Assembly (NCBI RefSeq): GCF_036046055.1
Contig: NZ_CP107939.1
Location: forward strand, 7,688,001-7,752,000
Reading direction: 5' to 3'
From: Nocardia sp. NBC_00403
GTDB taxonomy: Bacteria; Actinomycetota; Actinomycetes; Mycobacteriales; Mycobacteriaceae
Length of the DNA stretch: 64,000 nucleotides
Shown: one piece after another, positions 47,368 through 61,871 of the stretch
Position numbering within the stretch: position 1 is the first letter of the stretch
Layout of the letters: every line of letters begins with the position of its first letter
The notes under the pieces: generated by a model
Database searches by the model: none
Told to the model about the DNA's origin: nothing
The model's input: the letters and a program-made list of their open reading frames with translations, nothing else
Program-made: the position numbers and the translations under genes

Positions 47368-47471
47368 GCCCGAGTCGCCCGACACCTCATCGTCGATCTA
47401 TCACCGTACTGAACCGGCTGCGCGAACGTGGCGTCCGCACCCGCGACCCCCACGGACCATCCCGACCCTGA
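47368..47471 (+). pseudogene. HTH repeat-family remnant, copy 5
   Basis: Only the last HTH survives, with a frame break: ARVARHLIVD in one frame, then TVLNRLRERGVRTRDPHGPS and RP-stop in another. It aligns to the end of the 31926 gene ([19 protein letters not shown]). It lies between the dead IS481 and the GNAT-PIN gene. Confidence 0.7.
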
Positions 47472-47543
47472 TCATCCGAACTTGGTTGGGACAGAGTCGA
47501 ATACCCCCACCGGTGGCGGGATAGCCGGTAGATTCGAAGTTTT

Positions 47544-49613
47544 ATGGGGACGCTTGAGATCAGCGAGGTGGGGCCCGGAGATCCGGCAGTCGATGAGCTC
47601 ATAAAGTTGAGCAAGCGGTACAGCCGCACGCTGGGGATGATGCCAGCGGGCGCGTTCCGGGAAGCCACACAGTGGGGCGGCCTGATTGACGCAAGGATCG
47701 ACGGCGTGCTCATGGGATATGCCCTCTTTCGGCTGCCCCGCAACAATCAGGTCATGTTGTCGCACCTGTGCGTAGACTCGCTTGCACGCAAGTCGGGCGT
47801 AGCTCGCGCACTGGTGGCCGAGATTCGGGAAAAGCACTCGTCACGGTTGGGCATACTCGCCAAATGCCGAGACGACTACGAACTCAACCCCATGTGGGAG
47901 GCGTTGGGTTTCCACGCCCGTAGTCGAGCCGTCGGCCGCGGCAGAGACCGCAGCCCGATGACGGTGTGGTGGCTGGACCACGGCCACGCAGACCTTTTCA
48001 GCTTCCTCACCGAACCCGAGCTGCTGGCCGACGAGCCTGACCTGCTGGAGGCGGCGCTCGATCTGAATATCCTCATGGACCTGCACACGCGGGCAGACTC
48101 CGCCAGTTCGAAACGGTCCCGCGTGCTGATCGCCGACCACTTGGTAGGACGGCTCCGCTTGGTCGTCACGAACGCTGTCGACCGCGAATTGGCGCGCCGC
48201 CCTCAGGTCCAACGAGCCCCGATCAAGGTGGCCGCAAATCAGTACCCACGACGAACCGCAGTAGCCAGCCGAGCCGAGGACCTTTTCACGCAGCTCGTTC
48301 ATGCGTCGACTACGGGCGACCAACAGCTGTCTCCCCAAGACGAAGGGGATCTGTGGCAAATTGCGGAGGCGGCGGCCGCAGGTGTCGGCGTTCTGCTGAC
48401 ATGGGATGACAAGCTGCGCAGGCGGTTCGGAGAACTGCGGAAGGTTATGCCAGCCTTGGCCTCCTTCCACGTCCTGGACCCAGACCACCTTGTCACCCAC
48501 TTGGACAAACTCGCACAAGCGTGGGCCTACCAGCCCGCCCGGCTTCAAAACAGCGCATACGACCAGGTCCGAGCGAGCGCAGACGACGAGCACCGTCTGC
48601 TTGAATTCCTCGGCAAAACGTCCGGCGAAACACGCGGCGAACTGCGCGATCTACTGCGAGCGCTCGCGCGGGAACAGGTACCGCGGTGGCTGATTCGCAC
48701 GGTCGATGAACCCGCAATCGCCTGCTATGCCGCCTATCTCGACGGACAGATCCTGCGTGTGCCGCTGATGCGGACGATCGGGCACCAGCTGTCCGACACC
48801 ATCGCCCGCCAACTCCTCTGGCTGTTACGCCGAGTTGCGCAGGAGCAAGGTGCACGTGTCATCGACGTCTCCGACCGACACGTAGGTGGTGTCCTCACTC
48901 GCGCGTTGGCAACAGACCCCTTCCATCACCAAGGTGATCACTGGTACGCCTGGGTCATTCCCATGTGCGGGACAAGTCACGACATAGGCCAGGCTGCCAA
49001 TGAAATCCGTCGACTGGTCAACGCGGGGCCGGGGCCGCTACTGCGGCCCGGACTTCCGTCCCGCGCGGCTGCCGAGATCGAGCGATCGCTCTGGCCAGCC
49101 AAACTCATCGACACCGCGCTGCCGCACTACGTCATTCCGATCCAGTCCCGGTGGAGCGGTGACCTGCTCGGCTACCCGATCCAGCTCACGACTCGCCCCG
49201 TCGAACTGTCGCTGGGGCGTGAACAGGTTTACTACCGAACCCACGATGCCAAGCTGACTGCCCCTGCGAGGGTGCTGTGGCGAGTCAGTCAAACGCGCCG
49301 AGCCTCTGCGGCGATTGTCGGCACGTCTCTGCTGGACGCCATCGACGTCGACAGGCCGGCACGGCTTCACGCCGCTCTCAGGCATTACGGCGTGCTCGAC
49401 TTGCCAGATCTGGAGGAATTCGCAGACGGTAGACCGACCGTGCAAGCCCTCCGGTTCTCCGATACCGAGTTATTCGACAGGCCGATTTCCAACAGCACAT
49501 ATGACCGGCTCCGACAACAGCATGGAGGGCCGAAGGCGTTCTATGGCCCTCAGCGCGTCAATCCAGAACTCTTCGCCGCCCTTTATAGGGCCGGAAGCGC
49601 GCACCTCCAGTAA
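47544..49613 (+). CDS. GNAT-PIN multidomain protein, module partner of ASCH
   Basis: A 689-aa cytoplasmic protein. Residues about 1-150 form a GNAT acetyltransferase with acetyl-CoA loop SHLCVDSLARKSGVARALVA (R-x-x-G-x-A type) and NPMWEALGF. Residues about 165-315 form a VapC-like PIN nuclease with the acidic residues in LDLNILMDLH, VDRELARR, SPQDEGDLWQIA and LLTWDDKL. A long helical region follows, then a second GNAT-like segment (GARVIDVSDRHVGGVLTRAL). A C-terminal PUA/ASCH-like part (about 535-640) includes REQVYYRTHDAKLTAPARVL and SAAIVGTSLLDAIDVDRPAR. It is followed by a stand-alone ASCH gene. Fusion of acylation, RNA cleavage and RNA-sensing folds suggests an RNA- or tRNA-targeting toxin or defence effector; this is inference. 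Confidence 0.75.
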   Translation: MGTLEISEVGPGDPAVDELIKLSKRYSRTLGMMPAGAFREATQWGGLIDARIDGVLMGYALFRLPRNNQVMLSHLCVDSLARKSGVARALVAEIREKHSSRLGILAKCRDDYELNPMWEALGFHARSRAVGRGRDRSPMTVWWLDHGHADLFSFLTEPELLADEPDLLEAALDLNILMDLHTRADSASSKRSRVLIADHLVGRLRLVVTNAVDRELARRPQVQRAPIKVAANQYPRRTAVASRAEDLFTQLVHASTTGDQQLSPQDEGDLWQIAEAAAAGVGVLLTWDDKLRRRFGELRKVMPALASFHVLDPDHLVTHLDKLAQAWAYQPARLQNSAYDQVRASADDEHRLLEFLGKTSGETRGELRDLLRALAREQVPRWLIRTVDEPAIACYAAYLDGQILRVPLMRTIGHQLSDTIARQLLWLLRRVAQEQGARVIDVSDRHVGGVLTRALATDPFHHQGDHWYAWVIPMCGTSHDIGQAANEIRRLVNAGPGPLLRPGLPSRAAAEIERSLWPAKLIDTALPHYVIPIQSRWSGDLLGYPIQLTTRPVELSLGREQVYYRTHDAKLTAPARVLWRVSQTRRASAAIVGTSLLDAIDVDRPARLHAALRHYGVLDLPDLEEFADGRPTVQALRFSDTELFDRPISNSTYDRLRQQHGGPKAFYGPQRVNPELFAALYRAGSAHLQ

Positions 49614-49628
49614 CATCCAAAGATCAGG

Positions 49629-49648
49629 TATCGAACTCACGTTCGATA
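49629..49648. promoter_or_regulatory. Perfect inverted repeat before the ASCH gene
   Basis: TATCGAAC (49629-49636) and GTTCGATA (49641-49648), spaced by TCAC, lie 16 bp after the GNAT-PIN stop and 27 bp before the ASCH ATG. The form is of a small operator or an internal processing site, suggesting that the ASCH gene can be controlled separately from the large gene. Confidence 0.55.
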
Positions 49649-49674
49649 CATAGTCCGTGGATAAGGTTCGAGCC

Positions 49675-50148
49675 ATGACTGCGACACCAGCACCCGAAGG
49701 CGAACTTCTGACAGTGCAACGCCCCCTCCTGCTGTCGCTTCGCCCCAGGTTTGCGCAGGCGATCCTCGACGGCACGAAGACCGTCGAGTTGCGGCGCACC
49801 CGCGTATCGGCACTACCCGGCACGCTGCTCGTGCTCTACGCCAGCTCCCCAGTGATGGCCGTACTAGGCGTCGCGACACTGAGAGACCGGGACACCGCCA
49901 GCCCGGCGACCATATGGCGCCGATACCGCGACAGCGTGGGCCTGTCCCGAGCCGAGTTCTCCGACTATTTCGCTGGCGCTGAACACGCCACCGCACTTTC
50001 GATCGATGCTCCTCGAACGTTGCCAGAACCGCTGACCCTCAACTTGTTACGGACTTACGCCACCTTTCAACCACCCCAGAGCTACCGATATATCGCCCCC
50101 ACCGATCCCTCCCCGCTCGCAGACCTTGCCGCGGCATGGGCAAACTGA
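49675..50148 (+). CDS. ASCH domain protein
   Basis: A 157-aa protein with a PUA-like ASCH fold (RNA-binding or nuclease-linked). The family start is LLLSLRPRFAQAILDGTKTV with ELRRTRVSALPGTLLVLYAS (Lys-Thr-x-Glu-x-Arg motif). It continues with VLGVATLRDRDTASPATIW and FAGAEHATALSIDAPRTLPE, ending PPQSYRYIAP. Length is standard. It lies 61 bp behind the GNAT-PIN gene on the same strand; such pairs recur in bacteria (general recollection). It may be the specificity or antitoxin-like partner. Confidence 0.85.
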   Translation: MTATPAPEGELLTVQRPLLLSLRPRFAQAILDGTKTVELRRTRVSALPGTLLVLYASSPVMAVLGVATLRDRDTASPATIWRRYRDSVGLSRAEFSDYFAGAEHATALSIDAPRTLPEPLTLNLLRTYATFQPPQSYRYIAPTDPSPLADLAAAWAN

Positions 50149-50347
50149 GCGAACACACAGCGCATGGCCAAGCGGCGCCATCGTCCAACCGATGGTGGCG
50201 CAGTGGAGATCCGCCAGAAGGATCGACCTGGGCGGGATGACGTTGAGTGGAGACCACAGGCGAAGTGATCAATCTCGACGATAACTTCGAGGTCCTGTTC
50301 CGGCAGGTCGTGGAGAGCCCGCAGTGACGGCCACCGGGAGTTACTAG

Positions 50348-51842: not shown

Positions 51843-54224
51843 TCATGGTCGCGAGGATGGCTTGATGCCGGATCGTGTGGATGTCGAGGCGTATTCGGGT
51901 TCGTCGGTGAGCGTGAAATAGTTTTCCTCTTCCTGTCGAAAGTGCAGCTTCAGCAGGACGTAGAGCCCATACAGGCAGGCCAGCAGATCATCGATCTGGT
52001 CGGAGCCGATGCGGCCGGTGGTACGCGCCAAGCGGAGGTGGTTACCGATTCGCATGGTGAGCCGCTGGATCTCGGCATGCGTTCGACTCATGGTGGCGGT
52101 GGCCTCGGCACTGCCGAGTGGCGTCGCCAGAGCCGGATACAGTTCGGTTTCCTCGGCCTCTTCGTGAGGCAGCAGTTCGTCGAGGAGGAACCTATAGGCG
52201 GCCTCGACCGCGGACAACGCGGTCTCCTCGCCGCTACGCTCGGCGAGGCGATCGGCGGCGGTGCGGAGCAATCCGAGTGCGTCGCGCAATGCCTCGTGTT
52301 CACCGGCGAAGCGGCGCAGCATAGCCTCGGTGTCGGGGGCGAGTTCGGTGCGCAGTGCCGGATTGCCACGCAGGGCGCGTAGCGCATTGAGGATCACTGC
52401 CACGTCGATGCCTTCCTGCAGCAGCGCACCGGCGGCGGGTGGCAGCCAGCCGGCGGCGGCGACGATCATGGCCAGCAGTGACAGACTCATGCCGACGACG
52501 GCGCTCTGCACGGCGATGCGGCGCGACCAGCGGGCGGTGTCCATGGCATCGGCGAGCCGGTCGAGACGATCGGTGGTGAGCACGATGTCGGCGGCTTCCG
52601 ACGAGGCGGTCGATCCGCGCGCCCCCATCGCGACGCCGACGCTGGCCGCGGCCAGCGCCGGGGCGTCGTTGACGCCGTCACCGACCATCACCGTCACCGC
52701 GTGTTCACGTTCGCGGCGCACGGCATCGACCTTGTCGGCGGGGCTTTGCTCGGCATACACCTCGTCCAAGCCGAGTACGGTCGCGACTTCGCGTGCGGGT
52801 TCGGGCCGGTCGCCGGTGAGCATGACCAGTCGGTTCAGACCGGCCGCACGCAGTCGCCGAATGGTGCGGGGTGCGTGTCTGCGCAACGGGTCTCGCAGCA
52901 GGATCGCTGCTACGAGGTCACCGTCGACGACGATCCAGGCGATCGCGGCCGAATCCAGGCTTGCCCGGTTGACGACAGCGCGGGCCCAGCCGGCACCGAT
53001 GCGCGAGTCGGGCAGCTTGCCGACGTCGACCCGGTGGCCGTCCACGGTGCCCGACACCCCGCGCCCGGCTTGCTCGGCCAGGTCGGTGGGTGCCGACAAG
53101 TCGATACCGCGCGCGAGCGCTTCGGTGACGATCGCTTCGGCCAGAACGTGGGGCGACACCTGGTCCACCGACGCGGCCAGTCGCATCATCTCCGTCGCCT
53201 CGCGGCCCGGTGCGGCTACCACTTCGACGACTTGCGGACGGCCCGTGGTGAGAGTGCCGGTCTTGTCCATCACCAAAGTGGTTGCATGGCCGAGGCTTTC
53301 CAATGCGCTACCGCCACGCACGACGACTCCCAGGCGCGAGGCCCGCGATAGTCCCGAGACGATCGCCACGGGCGCGGCCAACAGCAGCGGGCACGGTGTC
53401 GCGACCACCAGGACGGCGACCGCCCGCACCGCCGACCCGCTGATGGCGTAAGCGGCACCGGCGACCAGCAGCGCGAGCGGCAGGAACCACGCCGCGTATC
53501 GGTCGGCAAGCCGCACCACCGGTGCGTTCTCGGCGCCGGCCTGCTCGGCCAGCCGCACAATCCCGGCGTAGGTACTCTCGGCCGCCGTCGCGCTCGCACG
53601 CATCTCGAACGCATCACCGGCATTGACGACACCGCTGCGCACCGGCTCACCGACCCCACGCTCCACCTGCAGCGGTTCCCCGGTCAATACCGACTCATCC
53701 AGCACCGCAACGGTATTCAGAATCCGCCCATCGACCGGCACTATCTCACCCGCAGCGACCACAAGCACGTCATCGACCACGACCTGGCCGAGCGGAATCA
53801 CCGTCACCTCATCACCGACTCGACGACGAGCCGACCGGGGTGCATGCTCCAGCAGGGCGCGCAGATCCCGTGAGGCACGCCGTTCGGCAGCGGCGTCGAG
53901 GGCTCGTCCACCGGCCAGCATGACGGCAATCAGCGCCCCAGCCAGATACTCGCCGACCCACAGCGTTCCCGCCAACGACAACACCGCGATCAGGTCGACA
54001 CCGGCCCGGCCCTTCACAAGCGTGGCGATCATCCAGAACAGCGCGGGAACGAACGCCGCCACTGTCGCCGCGATCCAGAACCCGTCGGCAGCACCACGCG
54101 AACCGAACACCCACAGGACCGCGCCGATCGTCAGCGCCGCCACCGTGACCACCACCAGCACCGGTTCCAGCCAACCGCCCAGCCGTGCCACCCACGGCCG
54201 AGCCTGCCTGGTCATTCGACTCAT
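51843..54224 (-). CDS. P1B-type metal ATPase fused to a C-terminal hemerythrin domain
   Basis: A 793-aa membrane pump. No N-terminal CxxC metal domain is present. Actuator: LDESVLTGEPLQVER. The metal-site helix carries VLVVATPCPLLLAAP (Thr-Pro-Cys-Pro, about residue 280) instead of Cys-Pro-Cys. Phosphorylation motif: VMDKTGTLTTGRP. P1B SP/HP-type loop: VDQVSPHVLAEAI. Hinge: MVGDGVNDAPALAAASVGVA. From about residue 640 a hemerythrin-like helical bundle follows (MLRRFAGEHEALRDALGLL, LLDELLPHEEAEETELYPAL, LLKLHFRQEEENYFTL). The fusion suggests metal export linked to iron or oxygen sensing; metal specificity is unclear (SPC/TPC group). Confidence 0.93.
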   Translation of the reverse strand: MSRMTRQARPWVARLGGWLEPVLVVVTVAALTIGAVLWVFGSRGAADGFWIAATVAAFVPALFWMIATLVKGRAGVDLIAVLSLAGTLWVGEYLAGALIAVMLAGGRALDAAAERRASRDLRALLEHAPRSARRRVGDEVTVIPLGQVVVDDVLVVAAGEIVPVDGRILNTVAVLDESVLTGEPLQVERGVGEPVRSGVVNAGDAFEMRASATAAESTYAGIVRLAEQAGAENAPVVRLADRYAAWFLPLALLVAGAAYAISGSAVRAVAVLVVATPCPLLLAAPVAIVSGLSRASRLGVVVRGGSALESLGHATTLVMDKTGTLTTGRPQVVEVVAAPGREATEMMRLAASVDQVSPHVLAEAIVTEALARGIDLSAPTDLAEQAGRGVSGTVDGHRVDVGKLPDSRIGAGWARAVVNRASLDSAAIAWIVVDGDLVAAILLRDPLRRHAPRTIRRLRAAGLNRLVMLTGDRPEPAREVATVLGLDEVYAEQSPADKVDAVRREREHAVTVMVGDGVNDAPALAAASVGVAMGARGSTASSEAADIVLTTDRLDRLADAMDTARWSRRIAVQSAVVGMSLSLLAMIVAAAGWLPPAAGALLQEGIDVAVILNALRALRGNPALRTELAPDTEAMLRRFAGEHEALRDALGLLRTAADRLAERSGEETALSAVEAAYRFLLDELLPHEEAEETELYPALATPLGSAEATATMSRTHAEIQRLTMRIGNHLRLARTTGRIGSDQIDDLLACLYGLYVLLKLHFRQEEENYFTLTDEPEYASTSTRSGIKPSSRP

Positions 54225-54711: not shown

Positions 54712-55110
54712 ATGACCACGGCGAACCGGCAGCTCATACTGACGTGTGCGCTGCTGTTGTCGCTGGCGGTAGCGATCATGCATGCACTCACCACGCACCC
54801 ACCCGGCCCAACACACAGCATGCACGGCGCACGGTCGTCCGGGCCTGCCGCATCGGTGATGTCCCCTATCGTGGACGGCACGATCCCGGCAGCGACCTGC
54901 GGACCCGACATGCGCGGCGTCCACGATCATGCGTGCGTGGCGGTCCCAGTGCCGCAGACCACGCTCACCCCGCCGGAGGTGCCCGTGTGGACGATCGAGC
55001 AATCCGGCGTTCCCGAAACTCGCACCATGATGCTGGTTCGCGCTTTCGGCGGGCGCGGACCGCCGTGGACGACTCCGTCGTTGCCGCAACTTTCGATTCT
55101 GCGGGTGTGA
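54712..55110 (+). CDS. DUF6153-like small membrane protein
   Basis: A 132-aa protein from ATG 54712. The N-terminal helix is MTTANRQLILTCALLLSLAV with AIMHALTTHPPGPTHSMHG. A Cys/His-rich middle follows (AATCGPDMRGVHDHACVAVP), then a Pro-rich segment and the characteristic end RGPPWTTPSLPQLSILRV. His/Met/Cys content and the neighbouring copper genes suggest a periplasmic metal-related role. A second, broken copy with the same C-terminal signature is at 58108-58535. Confidence 0.75.
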   Translation: MTTANRQLILTCALLLSLAVAIMHALTTHPPGPTHSMHGARSSGPAASVMSPIVDGTIPAATCGPDMRGVHDHACVAVPVPQTTLTPPEVPVWTIEQSGVPETRTMMLVRAFGGRGPPWTTPSLPQLSILRV

Positions 55111-55211
55111 CGGACACACCCGTCCGGTACATCAGCCGAATGGCCGGAGCGGGTCTGCTGTCCGTCCCATTTGTTGTGCGCGCCCGCGCACTCTTTCGAG
55201 GGAATCCTGTG

Positions 55212-56732
55212 ATGACCGAACCATTTCACCGCAACCCACTCACCCGCCGAACCTTTCTCGCCGCCGCTATCAGCGGCCTGACAGTGGCGGCGTGCGGCCG
55301 ATCCGACCACGGCGCCGCCGCCAACAGTTCTCCAACTCCCGTGGACCCCACTACGATCGAGGCCGCCGAAGCCCTCCGGCCACACACCGGCCGTATCGTC
55401 ACCGCGGCGCTGCGACCCCAGACCACCGAGGTCGACCTCGGCGGAATCACCGCACGTACACTCGTCTATGGCAACACTGTGCCCGGGCCGCTGATCCGGG
55501 CGAACGTCGGTGACGAACTCGCTGTCACCGTCACCAACAGACTCGACCACCCGACATCGATTCACTGGCACGGCATCGCGCTGCGCAACGACATGGACGG
55601 CGCGGCACCCGCCAGCCCTGACATCAAGCCGGGCACCGATTTCATCTACCGGTTCTCCGTAGCGCATCCGGGCACCTACTGGGCCCATCCACACGCCGGG
55701 CTCGACACCGACTACGGCCTGTATCTGCCGGTGATCGTGGACGATCCCGCGGATGCGGGACGCTACGACGCCGAATGGATCGTCGTCCTCGACGACTGGA
55801 CCGACGGCGTCGGCCAAAGCCCACAACAGATCCTCGACGGGCTGCGGGCATCTGGCATGTCCTCCTCGGGCATGGGCCACGGTATGCCGGGCATGAGTGG
55901 GATGGGCGGAGTCGGCACCAGCGAGCTGCTCGGCGGCGACGCCGGCGATATCGCCTACCCGCACTACCTGATCAACGGCCGCGTCCCCGCCGCACCATCG
56001 GTTTTCAAAGCCTCACCGGGGCAACGTATTCGGATCCGGATCATCAACGCCGCCGCCGACACCGCGTTCCGGGTGGCGCTGGCTGGACATCCGATGACGG
56101 TCACCCACACCGACGGCTTCCCCATCCAGCCCACCGTCGTGGACGCCCTGCTCCTCGGTATGGGCGAACGCTACGACGTCACCATCACCGCCGCCGACGG
56201 CGTGTTCCCCCTCGTCGCCCTCGCCGAAGGAAAGAACCAGCAGGCCCGAGCCCTGCTTTCCACCGCCACAGGCACCACCCCCGAACCGGGATCGCGGCCC
56301 ACCGAACTGAACGGCCGCATCGGCACCATCGACTCGTTCACCCCCGCTCCCGAAGCTGCACTACCCCAAGCGAAACCGGATGTGACACTCGCCGCGAACC
56401 TCACTGGCGGCATGATGAAATACGACTGGTCCATCGACAATCGGCCCTACCCCGACAACGCCCCACTCACCATCCGCCAAGGTCAACGCGCACGCCTCAC
56501 GTTCGACAACCAGACGATGATGTGGCACCCGATGCACCTGCACGGCCACACCTTCCAGGTCGTCAAGCCCGACGGAACGGCTGGACCACGCAAGGACACC
56601 GTGATCGTCCTCCCGATGACCAGGGTCCGGGTCGACCTCATCGCCGACAACCCTGGCGACTGGATGCTGCACTGCCACAATGGATACCACATGGACGTCG
56701 GCATGATGACCAGACTCGACTACACAAGCTGA
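55212..56732 (+). CDS. Multicopper oxidase (CueO/CopA type)
   Basis: A 506-aa Tat-exported oxidase. The signal is TRRTFLAAAISGLTVAACG (twin-Arg, possible lipobox). The three cupredoxin domains hold the four copper motifs: SIHWHGIALRND (HxH), GTYWAHPHAGLD (HxH), MWHPMHLHGHTFQV (HPMHLHGH) and MLHCHNGYHMDVGMM (HCHxxxHxxxxM). A Met-rich insert near residue 220 (SSGMGHGMPGMSGMGG) resembles the copper-loading loop of CueO. It probably oxidises Cu(I) to the less toxic Cu(II). The C-terminal fragment of a second oxidase lies at 57005. Confidence 0.95.
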   Translation: MTEPFHRNPLTRRTFLAAAISGLTVAACGRSDHGAAANSSPTPVDPTTIEAAEALRPHTGRIVTAALRPQTTEVDLGGITARTLVYGNTVPGPLIRANVGDELAVTVTNRLDHPTSIHWHGIALRNDMDGAAPASPDIKPGTDFIYRFSVAHPGTYWAHPHAGLDTDYGLYLPVIVDDPADAGRYDAEWIVVLDDWTDGVGQSPQQILDGLRASGMSSSGMGHGMPGMSGMGGVGTSELLGGDAGDIAYPHYLINGRVPAAPSVFKASPGQRIRIRIINAAADTAFRVALAGHPMTVTHTDGFPIQPTVVDALLLGMGERYDVTITAADGVFPLVALAEGKNQQARALLSTATGTTPEPGSRPTELNGRIGTIDSFTPAPEAALPQAKPDVTLAANLTGGMMKYDWSIDNRPYPDNAPLTIRQGQRARLTFDNQTMMWHPMHLHGHTFQVVKPDGTAGPRKDTVIVLPMTRVRVDLIADNPGDWMLHCHNGYHMDVGMMTRLDYTS

Positions 56733-56776
56733 CCCGAAGGCCACGGCCGTCGGCAAAGCCTGCGCAGAGTCGTTCC

Positions 56777-56968
56777 TCAGGCTGCTGTGAGAATCGGGGG
56801 CAGTGCACCGGTGGAAAGCTTCTCGATCAACAGGGGCGTGCATCTGCACGGCGCCAGGGCGATGACCAGCCCGACGACGACATCCACCATAAGACCGGCG
56901 GCCACGTCGCGCGGATAGTGGGCACCGCCCTGCCCGATCTGCAACGCGCCGACCGGGCGATCCACCAT
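56777..56968 (-). pseudogene. PAP2 phosphatase C-terminal fragment
   Basis: The last 63 codons read RPVGALQIGQGGAHYPRDVA, AGLMVDVVVGLVIALAPCRC and TPLLIEKLSTGALPPILTAA. GGAHYPRDVAAG matches PAP2 motif 3 (His-x-x-x-Asp) and the final helix. Everything before motif 3 is missing. A different PAP2 gene lies at 50941. Confidence 0.7.
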
Positions 56969-57004
56969 CCGGCCACCAGCAGCACCGCCAATTCGGATCT
57001 CGTG

Positions 57005-57088
57005 CATCCCGGCCAGTGGATGCTGCACTGCCACAACGCCTATCACGGCGAAGCGGGCATGATGACGGTACTGTCCTACGTCCGCTGA
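57005..57088 (+). pseudogene. C-terminal end of a second multicopper oxidase
   Basis: HPGQWMLHCHNAYHGEAGMM then TVLSYVR and stop. The type 1 copper motif HCHxxxHxxxxM matches that of the intact oxidase (MLHCHNGYHMDVGMM) but is not identical, so it is a diverged paralogue reduced to 27 codons. It abuts the PAP2 fragment with no gap. Confidence 0.88.
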
Positions 57089-57152
57089 CCACAGGGGTGA
57101 CGCCGACAGAGTCCGACAGCCCTGGCCGCAGGCCCTACGTCCCCGGCTCACC

Positions 57153-57275
57153 TCAGATATGCGAGTGTTGGCAGATAAGCAGGTGAAAGGCATCATCGCC
57201 ATCGCCCAGGCGACGGCCCTCGGTCAGCGTGAGCCCGGCCCTGGTCAGCTCCCCCAGAGCCTGAACTGTTTTCAC
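57153..57275 (-). CDS. Short ORF (40 aa)
   Basis: GTG 57275: VKTVQALGELTRAGLTLTEG, RRLGDGDDAFHLLICQHSHI. Composition is protein-like, with Cys/His near the end. No ribosome site or family. Possibly the tail of a lost regulator of the copper block. Confidence 0.3.
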   Translation of the reverse strand: MKTVQALGELTRAGLTLTEGRRLGDGDDAFHLLICQHSHI

Positions 57276-57351
57276 GCGCTACTACCGGCGGGGCGAGTCT
57301 GGTCGAGTCCACACTCGCCCGGCCGACTCAGCGATCGGCGATCGAGGCCGC

Positions 57352-58002
57352 TCAGTTTTGTTCGAGCATCGCCTTCATCTGATCGATTTCGCCCTGCTGG
57401 GCAGAGACGATAGTGTCGGCGAGGTTCTTGGCGTCGGTATTGGTTCCGCTCGTCTGTTCGGTCTTGCCCATATCGATCGCCCCTGTGTGGTGGTCGATCA
57501 TCATGTTCAGCCACATCGTGTCGAATTCTTTGCCGGACAACGCTTTCAGTGAGGAGAGTTGTTCCGGGTTCATCATTCCGGGTGTGCCGTGGCTCATCGT
57601 GCCGCTATCAGCGGTCGGTGCCGGTTTCCCGAAACTTTGCAGTAGCGAACTGATTTGGGCCATCTCGGGGGCCTGGGCGTTCTTGATGCGGACGGCGAGG
57701 TCGAGCACTTGCTGGTTCTGCGAGCGTGACGGCACCAGATCGGCCATCTCCACCGCCTGTGCGTGATGTGGGTACATCATCTGCAGGAACATCACGTCGG
57801 CGTCGTTGTACGCCGCGGGGGACGTCGGCGTGGTCGCGGTTCCCGGCATTCCCGGCATCCCGGACATGCTCGGCATGCTCGTGCTGGGCGACGTCGGGGG
57901 CGTGCTCCCGGAATCGTTGTTGTTGCTACAGCCGGCCACGATGAGCGCGACCGCGGTGAGGCCAGAAATAGCGATCTCGAGGGTCTTCGATCGTACAGAC
58001 AT
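57352..58002 (-). CDS. DUF305 copper-associated lipoprotein
   Basis: A 216-aa exported protein from ATG 58002 (AAGGAG upstream). The signal peptide ends in LIVAGCS (lipobox Cys about 27). A Ser/Pro/Met-rich spacer (MPSMSGMPGMPG) follows. The DUF305 ferritin-like bundle has two His-His motifs, FLQMMYPHHAQAVEMA and WLNMMIDHHTGAIDMG, and a Met/His insert (GTMSHGTPGMMNPE). Such proteins are co-located with copper oxidases and pumps and probably hold copper or other metals outside the membrane. Confidence 0.9.
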   Translation of the reverse strand: MSVRSKTLEIAISGLTAVALIVAGCSNNNDSGSTPPTSPSTSMPSMSGMPGMPGTATTPTSPAAYNDADVMFLQMMYPHHAQAVEMADLVPSRSQNQQVLDLAVRIKNAQAPEMAQISSLLQSFGKPAPTADSGTMSHGTPGMMNPEQLSSLKALSGKEFDTMWLNMMIDHHTGAIDMGKTEQTSGTNTDAKNLADTIVSAQQGEIDQMKAMLEQN

Positions 58003-58107
58003 GATGAAACTCCTTGGGGGGTCGAGAAATACGGCGTCATATCCAGAGACGAGATACCGTCGCGCGCGATGAACCGATCGCAACCGTTCATCGCCGCGGG
58101 CCGTCCG

Positions 58108-60502: not shown

Positions 60503-61597
60503 ATGAGGGTTGCGATCTTCGAGGCCGAACAGTGGGAGCATCGGGCGTGTCTGCGATTGGAGCCCGACCACCAGGTTCACTGTTCGGCTCAGACGCTCAA
60601 CGTGCGCAACGCGGCCGACTACGCCGACGCCGAGGTGCTCAGCCCCTTCGTCTATTCGACCTTGAGCGCCGAAGTTTTGGCCCAGTTCCCGATGTTGCAG
60701 CTGATAGCCACGCGCTCGACGGGGTTCGACCACATTGATCTCGAATATTGCGCATTGCACGGCATCACCGTCTGCAACGTGCCGGACTATGGCGATGCCA
60801 CCGTGGCCGAGCATGTCTTCGCCCTGCTGCTCGGCCTGGCCAGACACATCGTGGACGCAACCGAGAGAACGCGACAAGGGGTCTTCTCGCACTCCGACCT
60901 GCGAGGATTCGAACTGAGCGGAAAAGTCCTCGCCGTGATCGGAACCGGACGGATCGGGCTGCGCGTCATCCAGATCGCCCGTGGCTTCGGGATGCGGATC
61001 ATCGCATCGGACCGCCAACCGGACGCGGCGGCGGCGCAACGGCTCGGATTCCGCTATGCCTCCCTCGACGAGACGCTCGCGGCCGCCGACATTGTCACCC
61101 TGCACGTTCCCGCCACCCCCGAAACCGCTCATCTCATGTCCGACCGCGAGTTCGCGTTGATGAAGCCCGGCGCCGTCCTCATCAACACCGCGCGTGGCAC
61201 CGTCGTCAGCGTGCCCGCGCTCCTCCGCGCACTCGACAGCGGAAGGTTGAGGGCCGCCGGTTTGGATGTGCTTCCCGACGAGCATGCCATTCGCGAAGAG
61301 GCGGAGATCTTCCGGGAACTCGGACCCGAGGGCTACGACATGGCGGCGCTGATTGCCGACCACATCCTGCTGCGCTTTCCCAATGTGCTTGTCACGCCAC
61401 ACATTGCCTACAACACCGACGAGGCGGTACATCGGATCGTCGAGCACACTGTGCAGAACATCGAGGCGTACGCCCGCCATGACGCACGCAATGTCGTGCG
61501 GGCACCGACCCAGTCGAGGAGCGCGAGTGAATCCCCGCCTGCACCCGAAAATCGCTGCGGCACAACTATTGACGGCCTTCGAGCGGATCGCCAGTGA
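60503..61597 (+). CDS. D-isomer-specific 2-hydroxyacid dehydrogenase (D-LDH-like)
   Basis: A 364-aa NAD-dependent dehydrogenase. The N-terminal catalytic part is STLSAEVLAQFPMLQLIATR with STGFDHIDLE. The Rossmann loop is VLAVIGTGRIGLRVIQIARG with acceptor Asp in IIASDRQPD. Active-site Arg is in INTARGTVVSVPALLRAL, Glu in AAGLDVLPDEHAIREE, His in LVTPHIAYNTDEAVHRIVEH. The D-lactate type is likely from the NTxRG and PHIAYNTxEA forms. A 30-residue unrelated tail follows. ATG 60503 has GAGGAG upstream. It could make or use D-lactate or another 2-oxoacid. Confidence 0.92.
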   Translation: MRVAIFEAEQWEHRACLRLEPDHQVHCSAQTLNVRNAADYADAEVLSPFVYSTLSAEVLAQFPMLQLIATRSTGFDHIDLEYCALHGITVCNVPDYGDATVAEHVFALLLGLARHIVDATERTRQGVFSHSDLRGFELSGKVLAVIGTGRIGLRVIQIARGFGMRIIASDRQPDAAAAQRLGFRYASLDETLAAADIVTLHVPATPETAHLMSDREFALMKPGAVLINTARGTVVSVPALLRALDSGRLRAAGLDVLPDEHAIREEAEIFRELGPEGYDMAALIADHILLRFPNVLVTPHIAYNTDEAVHRIVEHTVQNIEAYARHDARNVVRAPTQSRSASESPPAPENRCGTTIDGLRADRQ

Positions 61598-61871
61598 CGA
61601 ACTCCCGTTCGAGTCTATGCGCATCGGCTCGCCCGGCCCCAGGGTCGGGATCTGCGATGGCCGGGTGGTGTGAAACGGCATGACGTGTGGGGATCGGTCC
61701 AGCACGGTCGCCTCCGCGACGACGGATGCCGGAAGCGAATTCGATCCGGGGGCTGTGCCATGCGTAGCGCAGCTGTACCCGCCGCACGAGCGGCTAACGG
61801 CCCCGCGTGCGGCGATCCAGCGGGAAACGATCCGTTGGTGACGTTGACCCATTTGTTGCACCTAGCATCCT
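61598..61871. other. Gap before the small gene pair
   Basis: No gene recognised. Overlapping frames of low coding quality only. Confidence 0.3.

Follow-up and report, generated by a model that had tools for sequence, protein, structure and literature searches.

A mobile GNAT-PIN-GNAT-ASCH gene and its ASCH partner in Nocardia, a variant of the predicted (PIN)-GNAT-EVE conflict family

The closest described relatives of the gene pair reported here are the (PIN)-GNAT-EVE systems. As set out in the text of Bell et al. (2020, PMC7641849), which refers back to a description by Iyer et al., these proteins join an EVE domain to the C-terminal end of a GNAT-like domain, an N-terminal PIN domain being frequent, and the operons nearly always encode an ASCH protein as well. 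The same text predicts (PIN)-GNAT-EVE/ASCH operons to be toxin-antitoxin and defence systems, and reports that none of the modules has been characterised. In PADLOC, these operons are modelled as the candidate system PDC-M11 (PDC, phage defence candidate), which consists of the models PDC-M11A and PDC-M11B. Judged by titles and the beginnings of abstracts, no experimental account of (PIN)-GNAT-EVE/ASCH or PDC-M11 systems was found among the papers searched. Here, we describe a two-gene module from a stretch of 64,000 nucleotides of Nocardia sp. NBC_00403 (contig NZ_CP107939.1, positions 7,688,001 to 7,752,000 of the forward strand), which as a whole is called the window. As judged from sequence comparison, the module is a variant of this predicted and apparently uncharacterised conflict family. 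What it adds to the published family is an N-terminal acetyltransferase-type domain (GNAT1), the decay of the PIN acids in some lineages, and an SOS box (Table 1).

Table 1. Features of the module, in window coordinates
Feature	Position	Strand	Description
Mobile unit	47373..50260	.	segment common with N. australiensis (97%); fetched flanks otherwise differ
Large gene	47544..49613	+	689 aa, GNAT-PIN-GNAT-fold-ASCH/EVE; PADLOC PDC-M11A-related
GNAT1	47544..47993	+	residues 1-150; acetyl-CoA-type motif R82-x-x-G85-x-A87
PIN	48036..48518	+	residues 165-325; VapC-like, acids D173 E215 D269 D288 (all four)
GNAT2	48543..48968	+	residues 334-475; GNAT-fold domain, divergent, no Pfam match
C-terminal ASCH/PUA domain	49110..49598	+	residues 523-685; in EVE position
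Inverted repeat	49631..49646	.	perfect, TCGAAC-TCAC-GTTCGA; LexA SOS box, overlaps expected -35 region of ASCH promoter
-10-like element	49662..49667	+	TAAGGT, ends 7 nt before ASCH ATG; predicted leaderless-type promoter
ASCH partner gene	49675..50148	+	157 aa from conserved ATG (open reading frame tool start 49657); PADLOC PDC-M11B, ZmASCH homologue

A sequence-only reading of the window had seen an acetyltransferase, a full set of PIN acids and a C-terminal PUA/ASCH-like part in the large protein, and all three are borne out. Structure models of the protein give a PIN fold where that reading had placed one (at about residues 165-315), and a GNAT fold at 334-475 (GNAT2), a fourth domain that it had overlooked. 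A structure search with the whole model was dominated by GNAT1 and ASCH rows, so the PIN and GNAT2 regions were modelled separately. The best fold matches of the C-terminal domain are to ZmASCH. An EVE match was absent from the Pfam scan of the large protein, and NCBIfam and PHROGs scans returned weak or generic matches at most. A recognisable tandem duplication of GNAT1 and GNAT2 was unsupported (hhalign 0.2%).

The sequence-only reading had also taken the module for undescribed and its domain combination for unusual. Neither claim is supported, since domain combinations of the same kind, together with ASCH, are described in the text of Bell et al. (2020, PMC7641849), and the window protein is colinear with the published form from residue 165. 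Its residues 165-656 align with 48 canonical proteins of about 500 residues (hhalign probability 99.0, E 3.2e-18, 441 columns), which were found among 120 of 171 matches listed and are relatives of the protein at locus L134, a full-length match to PADLOC PDC-M11A (9e-169). Taken domain by domain, the hhalign probability is 97% for the C-terminal PUA-like domain, 94.7% for PIN and 60% for GNAT2 against the canonical central GNAT. In both forms, PIN, central GNAT-fold and C-terminal PUA-like domains come in the same order and an ASCH gene adjoins; both are mobile, with some members near defence genes. The window form differs in its additional N-terminal GNAT with a conserved motif of its own, in a central GNAT so divergent that it is invisible to Pfam, in a C-terminal domain nearest to ZmASCH, and in the LexA box that precedes the ASCH gene. 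The motif of GNAT2 also departs from the canonical central GNAT motif when the alignments are compared. GNAT1 lies beyond the stretch homologous to the canonical family and is an N-terminal addition; compared with the canonical central GNAT, it reached only 7.9% (hhalign, E 0.0044). The searched text of Bell et al. (2020, PMC7641849), its figures being outside the search, mentions neither the extra GNAT nor a LexA box.

The PADLOC models agree with this placement. The partner is a clear PDC-M11B (2.7e-30), and the large protein that adjoins it is a weak PDC-M11A (6e-4, residues 172-336); the main PDC-M11A model is matched by 41 of 53 large relatives at E <=0.05. The large proteins of loci L131-L134, each adjoining an ASCH gene, are all full-length PDC-M11A, and Pfam finds GNAT in three of them, PIN in two and EVE in one (sub-threshold, weak). 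The full-length canonical PDC-M11A proteins examined (L131-L134 and L078) differ from the window form in having no GNAT1.

The large protein resembles VapC in its PIN fold with four acids, and GNAT toxins of the TacT/AtaT type are the comparison class for the acetyl-CoA-type motif of GNAT1. It differs from both in uniting PIN and GNAT in a single polypeptide. Membership in VapBC or in the GNAT-RHH (ribbon-helix-helix; TacAT/AtaRT) class was ruled out, because the partner is an ASCH protein and neither a VapB-type nor a ribbon-helix-helix protein.

The free-standing ASCH gene downstream, likewise recognised in the sequence-only reading, has ASCH as its sole Pfam match. Its product is homologous to ZmASCH (profile 1.6e-31; single sequence 4.4e-19 over 136 residues), a Zymomonas mobilis protein for which nucleic acid binding and cleavage of single-stranded RNA have been reported (PMC5615036). 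In an alignment of 43 sequences (the window protein and 42 among 120 of 444 matches listed), the equivalents of ZmASCH Tyr47 and Ser128, two of the three residues tested in ZmASCH (the third is Lys53), are Y61 and S142, both invariant (43/43). The partner is in turn homologous to the ASCH domain at the end of the large protein (hhalign 95%, E 3e-8).

Relatives of the large protein were collected from one genome per species (GTDB 220). They occupy 113 places, of which the best 80 were kept. Counts refer to loci and not to independent events: some loci are near-duplicates (e.g. L042, L045 and L046), and some share a genome, as do L009/L011/L018 (one Lentzea), L027/L043 (one Actinoplanes) and L074/L081 (one metagenome-assembled genome). 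Lineage groups were assigned by hand from record titles, with Actinopolyspora placed among the Pseudonocardiales. Counts of residues, PIN acids and GNAT1 motifs are based on a 78-row alignment of the window and 77 of the 80 loci; outside it are L016 and L067, where the large frame is split, and L076, a fused short form. Of the other alignments, A1 holds 53 of 61 protein matches and A3 holds 66 of 78.

The pairing of the two genes is highly conserved. An ASCH gene is present in 80/80 kept relatives and lies directly downstream on the same strand in 77; the exceptions are L072 (Cellulosimicrobium), where it is convergent, L078, with an intervening gene, and L076, where it is fused. The earlier proposal of RNA-targeting-type domains in one polypeptide with a conserved partner is thus supported. 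A class-wide sample of 296 genomes, the window's own among them, gives the same picture. Its raw tallies (43/296 and 86/296) contain short GNAT-only matches, and full-length large genes alone were counted: four with GNAT1 and four canonical, one genome having both. ASCH adjoins all eight, and eight of nine ASCH loci adjoin a large gene. The ninth (L135:3471-7405, genome G166) has a T5orf172/DUF4041 (PD-Lambda-1-like) gene nearby and no PIN-GNAT-EVE gene. Both genes are under purifying selection, with ratios of nonsynonymous to synonymous substitution (dN/dS) of 0.13-0.17 against N. amikacinitolerans and N. sienata (0.13-0.16 for the large gene against two species) and of 0.19-0.31, from few changes, against N. 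australiensis.

Some loci are arranged in other ways. In Cellulomonas hominis (L078:9893-14091), a GNAT-PIN-GNAT-ASCH gene, a canonical PIN-GNAT-EVE gene and one ASCH gene are consecutive. In Amycolatopsis alkalitolerans (L076:9830-11284), a 485-residue frame joins GNAT1-PIN to the partner ASCH with the middle missing, which may be a natural deletion/fusion or a remnant. Lentzea albidocapillata NRRL B-24057 carries three copies of the pair (L009, L011 and L018) and Actinoplanes flavus two (L027 and L043).

Conservation within the large protein is uneven. The GNAT1 motif, (R/Q/K)xxGx(G/A), is kept in 69/78 rows, and C108, R109 and W118 are present in 78/78. The four PIN acids are complete in Nocardia (4/4), in 12/14 rows of Pseudonocardiales, in Micromonosporaceae (7/7) and in the other groups (6/6), apart from the Streptomycetaceae and cyanobacteria considered below.

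The perfect inverted repeat that had been noticed before the ASCH gene proved to be an exact LexA SOS box. The actinobacterial LexA box is TCGAAC-N4-GTTCGA. For Streptomyces venezuelae, the reported motif is tCGAAC-N4-GNNCGa (PMC9380542). The junction repeat is one of five exact SOS sites in the 8.7 Mb genome, where a control pattern occurs once. Exact 16-mers occur six times in 1.54 Mb of relatives, all at the junction (L004, L005, L006, L015, L016 and L019). When up to one mismatch was allowed in the ten core bases, and the junction as well as the stretch ahead of the large gene was considered, a box was found in 13/19 Nocardia/Pseudonocardiales loci compared with 0/60 others, a tally that also omits L067 and L076 and includes L016. 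The background in random windows is 0.6% (100 bp) and 1.5% (270 bp). In L131-L135 (four canonical PIN-GNAT-EVE loci and a further ASCH locus), no exact core is present, and 4/5 have scattered one-mismatch cores. The in-frame -10-like arrangement is found in 18/18 Nocardia/Pseudonocardiales relatives and in 1.3% of random windows, with a pattern picked after inspection and with matches that overlap the SOS box in L012, L013 and L016 (one of two each) and in L019 (the sole match). At Streptomyces loci, the two genes overlap or nearly touch and the box is absent. These patterns make it probable that the ASCH gene is transcribed from a leaderless promoter of its own, which would be LexA-controlled in part of the Nocardia/Pseudonocardiales.

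The other four exact sites of the genome are at G000:C1:353413, 4651752, 5893846 and 7757414, the last preceding a gene that by eye resembles a 13E12-type protein. One-mismatch boxes are carried by recA and by the gene taken for the genome's lexA, which was the better of two LexA matches. A second LexA-like box in the window, also with one mismatch (ACGAACTCCCGTTCGA, 61597-61612), agrees with that of recA in its outer bases.

Distribution and context indicate that the module moves horizontally. Full-length relatives are patchy, being present in 2/36 genomes of the genus, its own counted. With two further Nocardia species, the window has in common only positions 47539-50152 (79%) and 47575-50154 (76%), so that the block shared between Nocardia species is just 2.6-2.9 kb within fetched regions of up to 10 kb per side; the remaining N. 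australiensis matches are pieces of 110-460 bp, which we have taken for insertion-sequence fragments. In nine Streptomyces loci, an integrase-family gene ends within 160 bp upstream of the large-frame start, and all nine have a tRNA-Gly(CCC) downstream (L022, L023, L024, L025, L031, L032, L042, L046 and L079), a tRNA gene present in 13/42 scanned Streptomyces loci. One member of the integrase family was checked and has a PDB integrase match of 2.8e-8. We infer that in Streptomyces the pair is cargo of an integrative element. The plasmid collection gave three distant matches (Calothrix, Nostoc and Prevotella). A phage-borne system was rejected at the sensitivity used, as neither IMG/VR nor the phage collection yielded a confirmed relative.

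Defence genes are found beside some members. Adjacent GajA and GajB (Gabija) lie within 4.5 kb at L015 and L040, and a DISARM DrmD-type gene within 4.5 kb at L056, so that Gabija or DISARM-type genes stand beside at least 3 of the 23 loci in a small, hand-picked sample. From the flanks of these loci, 25 of 154 matched families were listed, with no type I restriction-modification family among the 25, and 10/120 flank genes were inspected singly. Of these ten large flank genes, those at L019, L027, L009 and L016 had no defence match and that at L070 a RecD-like match alone. Eighteen control regions at arbitrary round coordinates (set A6, 120/136 called genes, two own-genome regions dropped) gave 31 matched families. 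The 25 of these that were listed are models of GajB-type (UvrD) helicase, RTasHel, mad and CARF, each with a single member; GajA is not among them. Genes in the flank set (A5) and the control set were called by a custom rule based on GC3 (G+C content at third codon positions). The Gabija and DISARM neighbours support a defence role for the module without proving it. Together with the PDC-M11B match, they favour the defence or toxin flavour that the sequence-only reading had suggested.

The reading that we put first, with belief and doubt in about equal measure, is that the pair forms a small mobile (PIN)-GNAT-EVE + ASCH conflict module, which would defend against phages or other invaders through RNA-targeting growth arrest of a toxin-antitoxin-like, abortive kind. 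Its toxicity, defence role and substrates are what we infer from sequence. The C-terminal ASCH/EVE domain would hold RNA, which may be a modified tRNA. GNAT1 would acetylate the held RNA or an attached amino acid (aminoacyl-tRNA), and PIN would cleave the RNA in lineages with intact acids, including Nocardia. The ASCH protein may bind the same class of RNA and tune or neutralise the large protein. As long as DNA is undamaged, the internal ASCH promoter would be repressed by LexA in Nocardia and some of the Pseudonocardiales. Since the LexA box precedes the ASCH gene, partner supply would rise in the SOS response, and the balance between partner and effector would change upon damage or infection.

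Several results weigh against this reading. The four PIN acids are incomplete in 38/42 Streptomycetaceae, 4/5 cyanobacterial and 2/14 Pseudonocardiales rows, and RNA cleavage by PIN is thus not a general mechanism. The GNAT1 motif is itself incomplete in 6/42 Streptomycetaceae and 3/5 cyanobacterial rows. SOS control is not general either, given the lack of the box in all 60 loci outside Nocardia/Pseudonocardiales. In 42/43 partner relatives, Met replaces the equivalent of ZmASCH Lys53. The defence neighbours come from a small sample chosen by hand, the 39 pattern matches in IMG/VR included no confirmed relative, and none matched in the phage collection. In addition, a LexA-repressed promoter of its own would be odd for ASCH as a classical antitoxin. 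For a simple antitoxin, such repression would be risky unless upstream read-through suffices, and this leaves room for ASCH as a trigger or co-effector.

Much of the same evidence would suit an ordinary addiction module of the toxin-antitoxin type, which would stabilise mobile elements without acting specifically against phages, with the large protein as toxin and ASCH as antitoxin. The two-gene layout, the toxin-type domains, the integrase and tRNA-Gly that adjoin nine Streptomyces loci, and the earlier toxin-antitoxin prediction in the text of Bell et al. (2020, PMC7641849) all point that way. We nevertheless consider it rather unlikely, since it would be unusual for an antitoxin to have a separate promoter under LexA repression, the Cellulosimicrobium ASCH gene (L072) is on the opposite strand, and defence systems adjoin some members. 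Also unlikely, by a shade more, is that the window form belongs to a distinct lineage in which acetyl transfer has shifted to the acquired N-terminal GNAT, the central GNAT motif has been lost and, in most Streptomyces, the PIN acids as well. The large protein would then be an SOS-gated RNA-acetylating defence effector, and the ASCH protein, under LexA control and produced chiefly when damage or infection occurs, would be its trigger or co-effector and not an antitoxin.

A DNA-damage-responsive module for RNA modification, repair or quality control, in which acetylation by GNAT1 is read by the ASCH domains, would be no conflict system at all. It would account for an ASCH gene that is preceded by an exact LexA box with a leaderless-type promoter, for the purifying selection on the genes, and for a GNAT1 motif that persists while the PIN acids of Streptomyces decay. 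A housekeeping role is difficult to reconcile, however, with the patchy distribution within the genus and the mobile location, and the box is limited to part of the Nocardia/Pseudonocardiales loci; we regard this explanation as improbable.

The ASCH protein YqfB acts as an amidohydrolase on N4-acetylcytidine and loses this activity when Lys21, Thr24 or Arg26 is missing (PMC6972931). That GNAT1 makes an N4-acetylcytidine-like mark which the partner removes in the manner of YqfB, as a toxin-antidote pair of acetylation and deacetylation, is highly improbable: Lys41 and Arg46 of the partner are invariant at YqfB spacing (43 relatives), but the position of the Thr24 nucleophile in the Thr-Lys-Glu triad, matched by spacing with YqfB unaligned, is Glu44 in 43/43, and YqfB is absent from the list of profile matches in which the partner meets ZmASCH.

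The variant offers several handles for tests: some lineages keep the PIN acids and others lack them, there is just one conserved acetyltransferase motif, and the SOS box hints at when the partner is made. Should the large protein prove to acetylate RNA and its ASCH partner to read or reverse the mark, two known ASCH activities, RNA cleavage and N4-acetylcytidine hydrolysis, would be tied to a defence pathway.

The module's own surroundings in the window consist of transposase pieces, a ROK gene and an ABC fragment; they do not amount to a demonstrated defence island, although no scan with the defence library was made of these flanks. Further along, positions 51843-54224 (minus strand) encode a P-type ATPase of 793 residues whose C-terminus, by eye, resembles a hemerythrin-type domain. 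Beside it, multicopper oxidase-like and DUF305-like genes were recognised by eye at 54744-58083, and together these genes are possibly a metal-resistance island.

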